Positions 57,403 to 64,000 of a stretch of 64,000 bases of DNA are shown here, piece by piece. Below the pieces are notes generated by a model that saw only the letters and a program-made list of their open reading frames with translations, did not search any database and was not told where the DNA came from. The stretch covers positions 818,001 to 882,000 of the forward strand of contig NZ_JAFCMM010000003.1 in the NCBI RefSeq assembly GCF_018131225.1, read 5' to 3'. Source of the stretch: Bradyrhizobium sp. U87765 SZCCT0048. GTDB lineage: Bacteria; Pseudomonadota; Alphaproteobacteria; Rhizobiales; Xanthobacteraceae. Position numbers and translations under genes: made by a program. How positions within the stretch are numbered: the first letter of the stretch is position 1; each line of letters begins with the position of its first letter.

Positions 57403-57541
57403 TCAGTCGCTGTTGAGACGGCGGCGCTCCTCGGGCGTCAGTATCTGCTGCTGCGCCTCACTGAGGCGGCCGTAGCCGGCGATCTGCACGGCGCTGCCGT
57501 CGCGGTAGTCCGGCGCGGCGATCGCGCTTCCCGGGCTGCGA
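57403..57541 (-). pseudogene. Out-of-frame coding tail downstream of the small secreted protein
   Basis: On the leftward strand, immediately after the stop of the 58012 gene, a different frame reads about 46 codons with strong GC bias at third positions: DDRSPGSAIAAPDYRDG, then GYGRLSEAQQQILTPEERR, ending NSD and TGA. No start codon with a ribosome site precedes it. A one-base change near 57543 would join it to the upstream gene. It is either the cut-off C-terminus of that protein or a fragment of another. Confidence 0.5.
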
Positions 57542-58012
57542 TCATCGGCCGACGGGTGGCGCGTAGACAGGCGCTGAGGGACGATAGGGATAGACCGATA
57601 CGCCGAAATTTCGGCCATACTGCTGCTGGACGCCGGGAATGTTGACCACACCGATCTTGGGATCGGCCGACTTGGCATCGAGCGGCGGAATGTTTGCCGT
57701 CGGATTGACCTTGTCGACTTCTTTCTTGAGCTTGTCGTTGAGACAGCCGAAAGAGCGATCGTTACCGATGGTCACATCGACGCAGCGCTCGTGCGACCGG
57801 CCAGGGCCGGAGCGGCGGCTGGCATCGGCTTCCTGGGACGGCCCACCGATCGTGAAGGGCGTGGGCGCTGGAGGCGCCGGCGGCTCCAGCACCGACGCGG
57901 GCGGGCCGGGCGGCGGTGCGCCGACGACAATCCCCGGCAGCGGCGTGCGCTCCTGCGCCATCGCTGCAGTTGCAGCCAGCAGCGAAAACATCGCGACGAT
58001 CGACGCCCTCAT
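57542..58012 (-). CDS. Small secreted Pro-rich protein of unknown function
   Basis: A 156-residue protein with signal peptide about 1-19 (MFSLLAATAAMAQ), a proline-rich segment (about 25-60), and a conserved-looking part, HERCVDVTIGNDRSFGCLNDKLKKEVDKVNP, with two cysteines likely in a disulfide. The end, YGRNFGVSVYPYRPSAPVYAPP, is followed by an out-of-frame coding tail. It follows the lytic transglycosylase by 26 bases. I recognise the general style from Nitrobacteraceae genomes but no assigned function. Confidence 0.8.
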   Translation of the reverse strand: MRASIVAMFSLLAATAAMAQERTPLPGIVVGAPPPGPPASVLEPPAPPAPTPFTIGGPSQEADASRRSGPGRSHERCVDVTIGNDRSFGCLNDKLKKEVDKVNPTANIPPLDAKSADPKIGVVNIPGVQQQYGRNFGVSVYPYRPSAPVYAPPVGR

Positions 58013-58038
58013 CTGTCACTCCCCCGCGATAGGCGCGC

Positions 58039-58842
58039 TCATGGCCCGCGCCGGACGGCCTGTCCACCATGCACCTGGATCACGATCGCATTCAGACGGG
58101 TGTTGAGAGCCGCGAGATCCACGCGCCCGATCTGCGCACCGGCGAGGCACTTGCGCCCGCAGGCGCCGCCGCCAGCGCCACCGAAGCGCCCGCGCACGGG
58201 ATCGCCGAACGTGGCGACGGGCACCGTCCCCGCGACGGCGAAGCCGCGCGCCATCAGCTTGCCGCGCACCGCCACGCAATAGGCGACCGACAGATGCGAG
58301 AAACGCGTCTCGCCGTGACCGGCGCGATACTTCATCGTCGCCGTGCAGAGATCGCCGCCGGCAAGCTGCCAGGCTCGCGACAGATACTTCACGCCATAGT
58401 GGATATTGGTTTCCGGCACCGCGAGATCAGCGAGCGTTCCGGAGAAGCCGAGCATGCGCGCGGTCGACGGCAGCAGCTGCATCAGCCCGATCTCGCCGAC
58501 GCCGCCGATCACAGCCGGGTTGTAGCCGCTCTCCACGGCCATGACGGCCTCAGCGATCTCCGGAGCGAGGCCCGTACGCGCGGTTTCCTTCTCGATCAGC
58601 GTGCGGTAGTAGGCGCGCGCATCGGCCGGGCGCTGGGCCGGCACATCGGGCTTGGCCATGACGTTCTTGGGCGGCTCGGCTGCTGGCTCGGCGGGAGCCT
58701 GAGCCTGCTGCTGTTCCGGCAGCTCGACCGCGGCGAAGCGCGGCGCAAACGGCGGCTGCGGCGTCTCGGCATGCAACGGCGCCGCCGCCAGGACGCTCCC
58801 CAGCGCGGCCACCATTCGCAACCTGCCGGCCCACGGCCGCAT
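58039..58842 (-). CDS. Lytic transglycosylase (SLT domain)
   Basis: A 267-residue periplasmic peptidoglycan-cleaving enzyme. Signal peptide about 1-25; a Pro/Ala/Gln-rich linker to about 80; SLT domain about 85-200 with the catalytic glutamate in EAVMAVESGYNP, GEIGLMQLLPSTARMLG, NIHYGVKYLSRA and the tail KYRAGHGE. It could open the wall for assembly of the envelope complex encoded upstream. Starts one base after the previous stop. Confidence 0.92.
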   Translation of the reverse strand: MRPWAGRLRMVAALGSVLAAAPLHAETPQPPFAPRFAAVELPEQQQAQAPAEPAAEPPKNVMAKPDVPAQRPADARAYYRTLIEKETARTGLAPEIAEAVMAVESGYNPAVIGGVGEIGLMQLLPSTARMLGFSGTLADLAVPETNIHYGVKYLSRAWQLAGGDLCTATMKYRAGHGETRFSHLSVAYCVAVRGKLMARGFAVAGTVPVATFGDPVRGRFGGAGGGACGRKCLAGAQIGRVDLAALNTRLNAIVIQVHGGQAVRRGP

Positions 58843-58843
58843 G

Positions 58844-59326
58844 CTAGTGCTCCTGCGATTCCCTGGGCTGAAGCGACAGCCGCAAATGCAGTGGCTGCAG
58901 CATGTCTGCCGGCGGCGCCCCGACATTGTCGCGCGCCAGCAGCGCACGCAGCGGCGCTGCGACATCGGGCTCTAGACCATCGAAGTCGACACGCTCGACA
59001 CGGCCACTCGGCAGGATCCAGGTCCGCACCACCACACTGGAAGGCCGACCGCTCTCGACCACGGCCTGTCCCGCAATGCCGTCCCGCACCTGCCGTGCCA
59101 CCGTGTCATCGGCGGCGAGCTGCTGCTGGAACTGACTTTGCAATTGCCTGGCGAACGCCTGCCAGGCAGCTGGCGCCGCTGTCGCTGACTGGAAATCGGC
59201 GCGCTGGGCGACGGCCGGCGCAGCCGTACTGCCAAGCCCGACCGTGATCAGCCCGGTGGCCGCACCGAGCCAGCGCACGACGCGTCGTGCAAGGCTGTCA
59301 CCGTTACCAGCGGAATCGACACTCAT
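58844..59326 (-). CDS. TonB-C-like periplasmic protein
   Basis: A 160-residue protein with one hydrophobic segment at about 16-40 (VVRWLGAATGLITVGLGSTAAPAVA) as anchor or signal. The C-terminal part (AFARQLQSQFQQQL ... VVVRTWILPSGRVERVDFDG ... LQPLHLRLSL) follows the same pattern as the TonB C-terminal domain of the gene at 63471 (QSQIETALRS, VQIRLWADSTGRVSKIQLV, PMPVVTRVT). It lacks the long proline-rich spacer of a true TonB. Function in the operon unknown. Confidence 0.72.
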   Translation of the reverse strand: MSVDSAGNGDSLARRVVRWLGAATGLITVGLGSTAAPAVAQRADFQSATAAPAAWQAFARQLQSQFQQQLAADDTVARQVRDGIAGQAVVESGRPSSVVVRTWILPSGRVERVDFDGLEPDVAAPLRALLARDNVGAPPADMLQPLHLRLSLQPRESQEH

Positions 59327-59383
59327 CGAACACTCGAAAATTTGGGAGCGGCGCAGGGACGATCCCTGCGCCACCGGATCATG

Positions 59384-59908
59384 TCACTGGATGGTCGCTG
59401 CGTTGGCTTCCGCCGAGGCATCGCGCACCGGCGCATCGGTCGTCGCGGTAGGGTTCTGGACGGTCTGGGACTGGGCAGCGCCAAGTTTCTGCAGTTCATC
59501 ACGCAGATAGGCGATCAGCTCCTGCACGAGGCGATCCCAGATCTCGACCTGGCCGCGCAGGTAGTTCGGCGCGACGCCACCGGCGACCGAAACGTCGAGG
59601 CAGAACACAAGGAAGGGCTGGCTGAGCTGCAGACGGCCGAAGCGACGGGTCACGTTCCAGCGGTTGACGATGTCGAGCGGCAGTTCGCCCTGCACCTGAA
59701 GCGCGGCGACGAACGCGACGTCGGCAAAGCCCTGGTCCTCGCCGACGAAGCGGTTGCCCGGACGCACATCGAAGGCAAGGCCCGCCGTCGCCGACCGCAG
59801 GTACGGCACGTTGGCGACCGGATCGGTCAACTGCTCGACGCGATAGCCGGAAGCCTGCAGGGTCTCGCGCAGGGCGTCGAGGGTCAGCGTGGTGACGATA
59901 TCGGACAT
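59384..59908 (-). CDS. YbjN-domain protein
   Basis: A 174-residue protein without signal peptide. LTLDALRETLQASGYRVEQLTD, FVAALQVQGELPLDIVNRWNVTRRFGRL and VFCLDVSVAGGV match the YbjN (type III chaperone-like) fold, linked to regulation or chaperoning. The tail from about 140 is low complexity. In an envelope operon it could chaperone a secreted partner in the cytoplasm (inference). Confidence 0.85.
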   Translation of the reverse strand: MSDIVTTLTLDALRETLQASGYRVEQLTDPVANVPYLRSATAGLAFDVRPGNRFVGEDQGFADVAFVAALQVQGELPLDIVNRWNVTRRFGRLQLSQPFLVFCLDVSVAGGVAPNYLRGQVEIWDRLVQELIAYLRDELQKLGAAQSQTVQNPTATTDAPVRDASAEANAATIQ

Positions 59909-59955
59909 GGAAACTCCAAGAGGTTTACGCGTGGATCTAACGCGATGCGGAAAGC

Positions 59956-61002
59956 TTACTTACGCGATGTTTCGAGCAGATTCGACAGCGCCAGCTCATT
60001 GAGCACCGGCGGATGCTGCTTCAGCAGCTCCGCGAGATAGGCCCGGCGCATCATGTTGGCGCGCTCGGAGCGGATCTGCTGCACCAGCTGGTCGCGCACT
60101 TCGGGCAGCGTCCGGGTGTACGACGCCTTGGTGTCGACGAGCTTGAGGATGTGCCAGCCATCGTCGAGCCGGATCGGCTCGGACACCGCGTTCTTGGCAA
60201 GGCCCATCACCTGCGAGCGGATTTCGGGCCGGATCTGCGTTTCCACGAGCCAGCCGAGGTCGCCGGTATCGGTCTCGGTACGGGCGATCGCCATGAAGTC
60301 GGCGCCCGGCGCCTTGAGCTTGCGCAGCGCTTCGTCGAGCTCCTGCTTGGCCTTGTCTTCGGTCGCCTTGTCGGCATCCTTCGGCGCCGCGATGAAGATC
60401 TGCGCCAGCTGGAACTGGCGCGGCACCAGCAGGGCGGCGCGGTTGGCGTCATAGACCTTCTGCAGCTCGTCCTCGCTCGGAAAGTTCGCGGGCGGCGTCG
60501 ACACCGACTGCAGATAGAGTTCGACCAGCGCACTCTCGCGCACCCGCTCGAGCTGCGCATTCACGCTCGGCTGCTGCTCCCACTTCTTGGCCTGCAGTTC
60601 CTGCAGCACCAGGCGGTTGGCGAGCAGCAGGCGCACTGCCTGACTCAGCAACGCCGGATCCTTGGAGAGAGCCGCCTGCTCGCGCGGGCCGAGCGTCGCA
60701 ATATAGCTGCGCAGGTCGTCGGACGAGATATTGGTGTTGCCGACCTTGGCAACGACATCGTCGCCGGTCGCGCTCTTGCCGGAGGCGAGGCCCTGGGTCA
60801 CCGGGGCCTGCGGCGCGGCGGCAACCGGCTGCGCAGCCGGCTTCGGCCGCGCGGGGACGGGAGCCGGAGCCGGGGCGGCGCGCTGCGCCGGAGCCGGCGC
60901 CATCGTCTGAGCCAGCGCCATCACGGGCATGCCCGCCAGCGCGACGACGGTCGCGACGGTGGCGGTCTGCGCAATCCTGAACATCGAGGGCCTGTGACTC
61001 AT
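59956..61002 (-). CDS. SurA-like peptidyl-prolyl isomerase
   Basis: A 348-residue periplasmic protein: signal peptide about 1-31 (MPVMALAQT), Pro/Ala-rich linker to about 75, SurA N-terminal-like helices (VGNTNISSDDLRSYIATLG to about 180), a parvulin domain about 185-290 (FQLAQIFIAAPKDADK, TGDLGWLVETQIRPEI, EPIRLDDGWHILKLVD) and a C-terminal helix. It probably folds the porin encoded two genes upstream. Overlaps the coiled-coil gene by 4 bases. Confidence 0.92.
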   Translation of the reverse strand: MSHRPSMFRIAQTATVATVVALAGMPVMALAQTMAPAPAQRAAPAPAPVPARPKPAAQPVAAAPQAPVTQGLASGKSATGDDVVAKVGNTNISSDDLRSYIATLGPREQAALSKDPALLSQAVRLLLANRLVLQELQAKKWEQQPSVNAQLERVRESALVELYLQSVSTPPANFPSEDELQKVYDANRAALLVPRQFQLAQIFIAAPKDADKATEDKAKQELDEALRKLKAPGADFMAIARTETDTGDLGWLVETQIRPEIRSQVMGLAKNAVSEPIRLDDGWHILKLVDTKASYTRTLPEVRDQLVQQIRSERANMMRRAYLAELLKQHPPVLNELALSNLLETSRK

Positions 61003-61592
61003 TGGGTTACCTTCTGGTCGAGAAACTTGTCGTAGGTGTCCTGCAGCTGGTTCTGCAGCTCGACGCGGCGCAGCTCGAGCACGGGCTCGCGCGCGACGAT
61101 GGTGTCACCGATGGTGACTTCCTTGTACCGCTGCACCAGTTCCTTGCCGGCCTTGACCAGCAGGGTGTTCTTGGCGACGCAGCTCTTGGTGCTGGCCTTG
61201 TAGGTCGCCGCCTCGCTCTCGAACTTGGCGCGCTCGGCATCCTTGGTCCGCGCGACGGTCGCAGCTTCCTCGTAAGCGGTTTTCCACTTCTCGAGGGTCT
61301 GATCTCGTTCCTCGAGGCGGTGGTTGAACTCGTCCACCGCCTCGCGATGTTCCTTCTCGACCTTCTTGACCTGCGCCTTGGCGGCGTCGATCTCGGCCTT
61401 CATCGCCGCCTTCTCGCGGTCGGCGTCAGCGATCTTGGCCTGGAGGGCCGTGCGCTGGTCTTCCAGCGCACGGGTCTGCATGGTGGCGCTGCGCAACGCC
61501 TCGCGCAGACGATCGGTCTCGTTCTCGGCGAACGCCGCGCTGGACATCAGCGTAGCGGTCACCAGCATGGCTAGCGGGAGGGCGCGGCGCAT
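60999..61592 (-). CDS. Periplasmic coiled-coil protein
   Basis: A 197-residue protein with signal peptide about 1-22 (MSSAAFAEN) and an almost unbroken charged coiled coil at about 25-130 (heptads through EDQRTALQAKIADADREKAAMKAEIDAAK-type sequence). The rest, KSCVAKNTLLVKAGKELVQRYKEV, is helical, with one cysteine. No known domain recognised. It begins 2 bases after the porin stop and overlaps the isomerase gene, so it is tightly tied to both. Confidence 0.82.
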   Translation of the reverse strand: MRRALPLAMLVTATLMSSAAFAENETDRLREALRSATMQTRALEDQRTALQAKIADADREKAAMKAEIDAAKAQVKKVEKEHREAVDEFNHRLEERDQTLEKWKTAYEEAATVARTKDAERAKFESEAATYKASTKSCVAKNTLLVKAGKELVQRYKEVTIGDTIVAREPVLELRRVELQNQLQDTYDKFLDQKVTQ

Positions 61593-61594
61593 GA

Positions 61595-63421
61595 TCAGAA
61601 CCTGGCGTTGAGGTCGACCTGCAGAACGTCGACGTTGTACGGGAAGCCGGCGATGTTGTTGGCGCTCATCCAGCGCAGCGACGCCCAGACGTTCTCGCTG
61701 AGGCCGAGGTTGCCGCCCAGGAAGTAGCCTTTGAGATTGGTGCCGCCGAGACCGAAGTCCGAGTCAGCGAACGCGTCGATGACGGCGTCAGACTCCAGAT
61801 ACTTGTAACCGACATGCACGTTCCAGTCGCCGAGATGCTTGATCTCCTTATTGCCGACGGTTAGGCGCCCCATCCAGCCGGTGTTGCCGCCGTTGTAAGG
61901 ACCGACCACGCCGCTATTGGTGCCGACGCGGTTATTGATGGCGTTCAAGTTCATATAGTTGCGATCAAACGCCGTATTCACCACGTACTCTCCGTCGATC
62001 ACGATGTGATAGGGGTGGAAGTGGCCGAGGTCGAGCTGAGCGCTCGCCACCAGCGGACGGAACTGGCTGGCCAGACCGAAGTACTGGTACTGCAAAGACT
62101 GTCCGAAATTATTATCGAACGTCTGATAGATGCTCCGCAGAACCGTATAACTGTTGCCCTTTTGCGCGAACGACGGGCGCGTCAAATCGGTATCGCAGGT
62201 ATCAGACGCGCTTTTGACATCGCATGGGCTCGAAACCCGTCCCTGCACATTGGTAAAGTCATAGTACGCCACGCCGAGGCGGAAGGAATATTCAGGGCTG
62301 ATCTTCGCAGCCACGCCGACCTGTGCGCCGAACAGCCACTTGTCGTGGCTGGCGAACTTCGTAGTTCCCCCGCCTGACGGAGTAATACCCGCGTTAAAGT
62401 CGGTATTGTAGGTGGGAAATGCACCGGCGACCGCAAACGGCGTGATGCCCTCCCAGACTTCACGCTTGGCCTGAACGGCGAAGCCGTCGAAACCGAGCTC
62501 GCGATACCACACGAGATCCGTCGGCGACCAGAACGGGTTGTCAAAGCGACCGGCGGACAGCGTCAGATCGTCGCCGAAGGTCTGGTATTTCAGGTAGCCA
62601 CGATCAAGCCACAGTGAATACTTCGAGAAGTTGCCACCGCTGTTGCCCATCGTCTGGTTGGTGGACACCGGGGAGTTGCTCTCACCCGTGGCGATGCGCA
62701 GGCCAGCCGTAAATCCGTTGTAGAGATCGGCTTCCATGCCGAGGCGTGCACGCAGGCGGAACTGGTTGCGGTCCTGGGTAGTGTTGTAGGTCGACGGCAG
62801 CGTCTTGTTCGAGTTGGTATAGTCGTACGGCGAGCCGGTGTTGATGCTGTTGAAGTTCCAGGCATCGACCTGGTCGTTACCGCTCGGAAAATAGCTGCCC
62901 TGATACCGAACACGCGCATCGCCATAGAAGCGGATGCGCTGCGCCCACTCGGGATAAGCGCCGGGAGACGCCCAGTTTTCCTTCTGTGCCTTGGCCATCA
63001 CCTCCTTCTTAATCTCGTCACGTAACTGCCGTTTGACGACTTCCGGCACATAGGTGACGTGGCGGGTGCCCGGAGGCTGGGCGGCGGCCGCCGCGGCGCT
63101 CGCGGCCTTGGCGGCATCGTCGGCCTTGGCGGTGGCGTCCTTGGCCGCCTGGCGCGACACATAAGCTTCATCTTCGGCCTGCTTGATCAGCAGCTGGGCC
63201 TGCTCTTCCTTGATCACGCCCTGGCTGACCAGCATGTTGACGAGGTTGATCGTCGCATTGGGGGAGGTCGGCTTGGCCTGGGAAACGGCCGGACGCTTCT
63301 CCTTCTTGGCAGGCGCCGTGTCCGCGGTCTGGCTCATGGCCGGCGTCGCACAGGCGAGCGCGCACAGCGACACCGCGAGCGGGATCGCCTGCCAACCTGC
63401 GTCTGCTTTGCTCTTAAACAT
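61595..63421 (-). CDS. Putative porin (Porin_5-like)
   Basis: A 608-residue outer-membrane protein. Signal peptide about 1-31 (ALACATPAMSQ); helical periplasmic region about 50-150 (LVNMLVSQGVIKEEQAQLL, then Ala-rich); beta-barrel from about 160 with alternating strands (IRFYGDARVRYQGSYF, FRLRARLGMEADLYNGF, DLTLSAGRFDNPFWSP, WLFGAQVGVAAKI) ending in ...NARF, the terminal phenylalanine signal of barrel proteins. Porins of this family are often found with TonB/ExbBD genes (from memory). Substrate unknown. The ATG at 63421 is preferred; a GTG six codons upstream is possible. Confidence 0.88.
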   Translation of the reverse strand: MFKSKADAGWQAIPLAVSLCALACATPAMSQTADTAPAKKEKRPAVSQAKPTSPNATINLVNMLVSQGVIKEEQAQLLIKQAEDEAYVSRQAAKDATAKADDAAKAASAAAAAAQPPGTRHVTYVPEVVKRQLRDEIKKEVMAKAQKENWASPGAYPEWAQRIRFYGDARVRYQGSYFPSGNDQVDAWNFNSINTGSPYDYTNSNKTLPSTYNTTQDRNQFRLRARLGMEADLYNGFTAGLRIATGESNSPVSTNQTMGNSGGNFSKYSLWLDRGYLKYQTFGDDLTLSAGRFDNPFWSPTDLVWYRELGFDGFAVQAKREVWEGITPFAVAGAFPTYNTDFNAGITPSGGGTTKFASHDKWLFGAQVGVAAKISPEYSFRLGVAYYDFTNVQGRVSSPCDVKSASDTCDTDLTRPSFAQKGNSYTVLRSIYQTFDNNFGQSLQYQYFGLASQFRPLVASAQLDLGHFHPYHIVIDGEYVVNTAFDRNYMNLNAINNRVGTNSGVVGPYNGGNTGWMGRLTVGNKEIKHLGDWNVHVGYKYLESDAVIDAFADSDFGLGGTNLKGYFLGGNLGLSENVWASLRWMSANNIAGFPYNVDVLQVDLNARF

Positions 63422-63470
63422 CAGTCCCCCAGTTCTCACTCGTCACGTCTGAAGTTGAAATCAGGACAGC

Positions 63471-64000
63471 TCAGCTCGGCCGCCGCGCGGTAACGCGGGT
63501 GACCACAGGCATCGGCATGTCCTTCGGTGGCGGTTCACGCAACGTCATGCCGCTGAACAGGTCGTTGCGGATGACGGCATCGAGTTCGGCGTCGCCCGTG
63601 GACGACACCAGTTGGATCTTGCTGACGCGACCGGTGCTGTCGGCCCAGAGGCGGATCTGCACTTGCATGATCGCGTTGCGGGTTTTCGGATTGGAGCGCA
63701 GCGCGGTCTCGATCTGCGACTGCACGATGGACGCGTACCAGCCCCAGCGACTGCCGCCGCCTCCGCCGCCGCCATACGGACTGCCGCCCGGCTTACCGCC
63801 GAGATTGAACAGATCGCCCGGACCGGTGGCCTTGGCATCGAGCGACAGCGGGCCCGGCGGCTCGTCGTTCTTGGCATCCTTGGCCGGCTCGTCCTTCGGC
63901 TTGTCGACCGGCTTCTCTTCCTTGAACTCCGGTTCCGCCATCTTCGGCTGCTCGATCATCTTCTGTTCGGGCTGCTGCTGCGGCGGAGGGGGCGGGGGCG
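63471..64000 (-). CDS. TonB energy transducer, C-terminal part
   Basis: The frame is open to the window edge, so the N-terminal membrane anchor is missing. Visible from the right: a polyproline/glutamine stretch, then Pro/Lys/Glu-rich spacer (PVDKPKDEPAKDAKNDEPP), a glycine-rich hinge (PYGGGGGGGSRWGWY) and the TonB C-terminal domain (IQSQIETALRS-like helix, VQIRLWADSTGRVSKIQLV). It would pass inner-membrane proton energy to an outer-membrane partner, here perhaps the porin. The ATG at 63959 is internal. ExbB and ExbD are expected to its right. Confidence 0.88.
   Translation of the reverse strand, partial: PPPPPPQQQPEQKMIEQPKMAEPEFKEEKPVDKPKDEPAKDAKNDEPPGPLSLDAKATGPGDLFNLGGKPGGSPYGGGGGGGSRWGWYASIVQSQIETALRSNPKTRNAIMQVQIRLWADSTGRVSKIQLVSSTGDAELDAVIRNDLFSGMTLREPPPKDMPMPVVTRVTARRPS

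Follow-up and report, generated by a model that had tools for sequence, protein, structure and literature searches.

What might a Ton complex drive when the outer-membrane protein encoded beside it is a porin with no plug? The question is raised by an operon at the end of a 64,000-nt stretch of DNA from Bradyrhizobium sp. U87765 SZCCT0048, the whole of which is called the window (G000:C7:818001-882000), the edge of which cuts the operon inside TonB. From the letters of the window, the original prediction described a leftward set of envelope genes forming an energized machine of unknown cargo. The genes beyond the edge, the loci of other genomes and the remaining two-partner-secretion (TPS) proteins of the same genome suggest what that cargo is.

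An envelope operon equipped with a Ton complex

All genes named in the original prediction are open frames on the minus strand. TonB (63471–64000; Pfam TonB_2) runs past the window edge and is 274 aa at full length (L008:7471-8295). It is followed by a Porin_5 barrel (61595–63439; Pfam Porin_5, E 4e-220) with N-terminal periplasmic helices and no plug, a periplasmic coiled-coil protein (60999–61592; PA0697-like by position and sequence), a PpiC-type peptidyl-prolyl isomerase (59956–61002; PA0699-like) and a YbjN-family protein (59384–59908; PA0698-like). Next come a second protein with a TonB C-terminal domain (58844–59374), a lytic transglycosylase (SLT; 58039–58842) and, as the final operon gene, a small exported protein (57542–58012) with relatives in L062, L066 and L155. 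Matches to the coiled coil, the second TonB-C protein and the small last protein stayed below the Pfam cut-offs. Profile–profile comparison nevertheless matched the second TonB-C protein to the operon's own TonB (96.6%, E 5e-10), upholding its predicted identity, and P. aeruginosa PA7 has a weak match at the corresponding position (L144, E 3e-4). The isomerase had been called SurA-like; it is indeed a rotamase, of PpiC type, with a weak match to SurA_N. The coiled coil was also considered as a Ton part of the Vibrio TtpC/DUF3450 type and rejected, with a DUF3450 score of merely E 0.17.

SLT most likely starts at 58842, ahead of a signal peptide, rather than at the first ATG at 58965, and then overlaps the preceding gene briefly at most. 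With this start, the gaps from TpsB (below) through the final gene run from –4 to 47 bases; the tight leftward set is real. The families were as predicted, except that the ORF at 57403–57678 is no gene (see below) and SLT falls outside the conserved core, since among the loci compared (14 plus the best 80 matches) it was found again only in L062, the locus of the closest relative.

Beyond the edge, the minus-strand genes continue. A 168-aa protein (L008:8292-8798), with no family in Pfam or NCBIfam and its sole relative found in L062, lies between TonB and ExbD (L008:8795-9199). Then come ExbB (L008:9205-11205; 666 aa), with DUF2341 and LamG domains N-terminal to the ExbB part, and TpsB (L008:11205-13013; 602 aa), with POTRA_2 and ShlB domains. 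The original prediction had staked its reading, a dedicated, energized envelope unit, on exbB and exbD lying upstream; both are directly there, on the same strand. In alignment, the proton-path residues are kept: in ExbD the helix retains its Asp, and ExbB has both of the two Thr shared with TolQ. Farther upstream are FecR (L008:13137-14204), an ECF sigma factor (L008:14487-15164), a third TonB-like protein (L008:15266-15976) and an STN/TonB-like protein that spans the L008/L009 boundary (L009 up to 743), all on the minus strand and separated by 101 to 282 bases. The STN label is our reading of sequence and gene position; the C-terminal part of this protein resembles the operon's TonB.

Relation to the pdt and PUMA3 loci

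Judged by sequence, the operon is a known kind of locus, the VreI-regulated pdt locus (PA0690-PA0700) of P. aeruginosa, which it matches gene for gene. It holds the pdt/PUMA3-type set of TpsB, ExbB, ExbD, TonB, a PA0696-like porin and PA0697-, PA0698- and PA0699-like genes, and the TpsAs are of the same type. In P. aeruginosa PA7 (L144) the row reads TpsA end, TpsB, ExbB, ExbD, TonB, porin, coiled coil, YbjN, PpiC. The STN/TonB-like, ECF sigma and FecR genes directly upstream are those of the PUMA3/Vre cell-surface-signaling system (PMC2729926, PMC7035377); their regulatory role here is predicted. In PAO1, sigma VreI raises the counterparts, which are pdtA, pdtB, exbB2, exbD2, tonB4 and PA0696 to PA0699 (PMC2729926; PMC7035377). 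A 2009 paper linked PUMA3 with TPS, ExbBD and PA0696 in further genomes, among them R. palustris, where three clusters have a tpsA and a single one has tpsB-exbBD (PMC2729926). exbB2-exbD2-tonB4 have been called uncharacterized, and the function of PA0696-PA0700 unknown (PMC7035377).

Unlike in pdt, TpsA is unlinked here; 11 potential clients lie scattered through the genome, and every one has a cassette to itself. This operon also adds the 168-aa gene, SLT and the small last gene, and has YbjN and PpiC in swapped order. In this variant of the locus one hub faces 11 scattered potential clients, and strong indirect evidence allows a cargo to be proposed.

Conservation and co-occurrence with DUF3739

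We compared 14 loci of 13 other genomes and, as a second set, the best 80 matches to a Pseudomonas-like query, nearly all from Pseudomonas and Achromobacter because of that query. The order TpsB–ExbB–ExbD–TonB–Porin_5 is nearly always kept, usually with the coiled coil next after Porin_5. Conservation of gene order, as predicted, thus reaches well beyond the family. Two genomes (G360, G019) have no TpsB adjoining the operon and carry a DUF3739 TpsA directly before ExbB instead. In G268 the DUF2341 protein is located on a separate contig.

DUF3739 occurs in 14 of 398 genomes, the same 14 that have full-length Porin_5. These represent 12 genera and seven families. Taken at face value, the probability that two such sets coincide is 4e-26, a figure that is too small because the genomes share kinship. 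Six genomes with a partial Porin_5 match (G154, G237, G286, G310, G344, G356) were not counted as hubs, a choice made post hoc; in all of these but G154, the porins are ~450–480 aa and belong to a different porin family reached by the Porin_5 model.

A tree placed 18 hub TpsBs on one side of a branch (support 100/99) and 23 others on the other side, a few of the latter being picked merely as the longest frame and unsure in placement. L205 (G294:C1:3486500-3488900), from a genome without full-length Porin_5 or DUF3739, has a TpsB that branches beside the hub TpsBs and may represent the state before the Ton genes joined.

Giant TpsA proteins as likely clients

The genome of the window encodes 15 TPS-domain proteins and four TpsBs. 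Three TpsBs adjoin partner TpsAs, and at least three of these TpsAs have a Cys pair at the end. The fourth TpsB, in the operon, has no TpsA adjoining. Eleven giant TpsAs of about 3,800–4,350 aa carry the TPS domain and have no TpsB nearby. Unlike the genome's other TpsAs where their ends were read, they do not end in a Cys pair. Every one of the 11 has DUF3739 (Pfam) near its end, and immediately upstream of every one are STN-like, sigma and FecR genes, in that order. FecR matches (Pfam) number 12 in the genome, 11 before the giants and one in the hub operon. One giant (L031; G000:C3:1-17000) is truncated where contig C3 stops, its tail unread. These client numbers are independent of the TpsA counts of the phylum scan, in which about six candidates were scored per genome.

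Strong indirect evidence thus points to the 11 unlinked giant DUF3739 TpsAs as the cargo of the hub, and we infer that its TpsB exports them. The original prediction had left the kind of cargo unknown. That no longer fits, with a TpsB exporter just past the edge and full-length Porin_5 always accompanied by giant DUF3739 TpsAs in the 398 genomes. Genomes of the window's family that have DUF3739 show 1 to 17 matches each, a few of them split copies. In G543 and G575 several copies lie in short open frames (136 to ~1,500 aa), pointing to TpsA genes in decay or to errors in the sequence.

The genome also holds three self-contained TPS loci (L034, L035 and L036, on contigs C8, C10 and C6), with smaller TpsAs and no signaling cassette. 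Their TpsAs have MBG repeats in the one scanned and Cys-pair ends where read. We regard these as TPS of another kind, present in this genome apart from the hub type. Like FhaB/FhaC, HMW1A/B and CdiA/CdiB, the giants and the operon's TpsB combine an N-terminal TPS domain with a POTRA and ShlB/FhaC-type transporter; unlike the operon, those classical systems have no Ton complex or porin.

A conserved tail strand and the probable trace of a lost client

Past DUF3739, the giants end in ~100 residues without any Pfam model. Within this tail a strand, S-[IV]-x-x-V-x-V-L-G-[FY]-G, is conserved, one Val being invariant in 21 aligned ends. In the reading of TpsA ends locus by locus, L158, L159, L162, L164, L168, L170, L172, L176, L181 and L185, for which the wrong frame was picked, were left aside, and the survey for the strand covers DUF3739 TpsAs, with those lacking DUF3739 covered narrowly. 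The strand resembles a TonB box only loosely. In the predicted structure of one giant's end, a beta-helix extends to about residue 331, and the low-confidence, disordered tail that follows finishes in two short helices. The TpsAs of G019 and G360 terminate at or just past the conserved strand. Among 10 complete clients, both ends are more alike than the middles, as expected if one hub must recognize both ends.

A fragment of such a tail appears to survive at the end of the operon. The last 28 codons of the ORF at 57403–57678 (57403–57489, minus strand; VQIAGYGRLSEAQQQILTPEERRRLNSD) resemble the C-terminal end of a giant TpsA, but their frame lacks a start. We rejected this ORF as an independent gene on both counts, the lack of a start for the tail and its likeness to a TpsA remnant. 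In genome G200 (L062), an STN-sigma-FecR-TpsA cassette begins right after the equivalent last operon gene. This is most simply read as the deletion of a client TpsA once linked to the locus, with a probable remnant left behind.

The porin and the case for uptake

The original prediction noted a porin, and no plugged receptor, beside TonB. Family scans of the operon proteins and the porin model revealed no plug domain, so the plugged outer-membrane receptor of TonB-dependent uptake is missing from the operon, and we rejected the idea that TonB opens the porin as a gate. In the model (mean pLDDT 69), the porin has ~16 to 18 strands and a helical periplasmic extension, and its nearest solved fold is the attachment porin OmpM1. 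A segment around V120-V127, between two helices, is conserved in 26 of 26 aligned porins and is a second candidate for TonB contact. With a TpsB in the operon and the porin co-occurring with DUF3739 exoproteins, an unplugged porin as the part energized for uptake is not supported.

Uptake is still our main rival reading, in which the TpsAs capture a substrate at the surface and the Ton complex energizes Porin_5 or an unlinked receptor for import. TonB is otherwise an uptake device, and HxuA and HxuB, which work with the TonB-dependent receptor HxuC, provide a precedent (PMC5422565, PMC4873976). Phosphate starvation induces the P. aeruginosa locus, and few proteins rise as strongly as its porin PA0696 (PMC9769906). 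Moreover, the match between DUF3739 and Porin_5 is equally expected if the TpsAs serve uptake. Yet the Hxu system, which likewise joins a TPS pair to a TonB-dependent step, has a plugged receptor in HxuC, whereas here there is a plugless Porin_5 with a dedicated ExbBD-TonB (PMC5422565), the porin model resembling ordinary and attachment porins. We consider uptake on the HxuABC pattern unlikely, though a serious contender.

The presence of an STN-sigma-FecR cassette at every client and at the hub, and the match of the STN proteins' C-terminal part to the hub TonB, would also suit a role in signaling or assembly. The Ton parts and STN/TonB-like proteins would then sense TpsA export, with TonB passing the state on to FecR and sigma and not powering transport. 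But most of the pdt-type loci among the best 80 matches keep ExbBD-TonB with no adjoining cassette within 10 kb, and we view this role as improbable. That the TPS, Ton and porin genes are merely co-regulated stress-response neighbors with no joint function is highly improbable, for although the P. aeruginosa sigma factor has a further target in the Hxc type II system, which is unrelated (PMC2729926), the TpsB-ExbB-ExbD-TonB-Porin_5 order persists across distant families and the DUF3739 co-occurrence is complete in the 398-genome sample.

A proposed TPS hub coupled to a Ton complex

We favor, with a probability of roughly 55%, the reading that the operon is a TPS hub coupled to its own Ton complex and serving the 11 giant DUF3739 TpsAs. 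Supporting it are the tight joining of TpsB, ExbB and ExbD in one operon; 11 giants without an adjoining TpsB and one TpsB without an adjoining TpsA; the genome-by-genome match of DUF3739 and Porin_5, the kept gene order and the single group of hub TpsBs; and the retained proton-path residues, the conserved tail strand and the conserved client ends. Counting against it are the missing TpsB beside the operon in G360 and G019, the loose likeness of the tail strand to a TonB box and the report that type V secretion needs no external energy (PMC5422565).

Under this hub reading, TpsB would export giant TpsAs encoded elsewhere, with Porin_5 as its outer-membrane partner and the PpiC isomerase and coiled coil as periplasmic helpers. 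Each of the 11 TpsAs would be controlled by its own STN-sigma-FecR cassette. Export would begin at the N-terminal TPS domain, so that the C-terminal tail is the last part to remain in the periplasm; the C terminus of some TpsAs does stay there (PMC5422565). The conserved tail strand is the likely TonB handle. By acting on it or on the porin, ExbBD-TonB would spend proton-motive force on finishing export, holding the exoprotein or releasing it; contact with tail or porin, and energy spent on secretion or release, are what we infer. In each client's STN protein, the TonB-like domain could also recognize this tail, giving feedback on that client's sigma factor. The arrangement shares ExbB/TolQ, ExbD/TolR and TonB/TolA-like parts with Ton and Tol-Pal; unlike them, it has an ExbB with N-terminal DUF2341 and LamG and an operon without a plugged receptor, TolB or Pal.

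A bolder version, which we hold tentatively and think doubtful, is a proton-gradient-driven TPS in which TonB pulls the tail strand while the TonB-like domain of the client's sensor reads that tail as well. A genome with as many as 17 such exoproteins would in this way control which of them is displayed by the hub.

What drives the export of very large exoproteins is still an open question (PMC5422565), and this locus offers a concrete, testable case of energized TPS. In the sample searched, one class of giant exoprotein always goes with a porin, a full Ton complex and one group of transporters. The exbB2-exbD2-tonB4-PA0696 genes thereby gain a proposed cargo, and DUF3739 is placed in a context. 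One hub with many clients, each under its own signaling cassette, suggests cue-controlled surface display.
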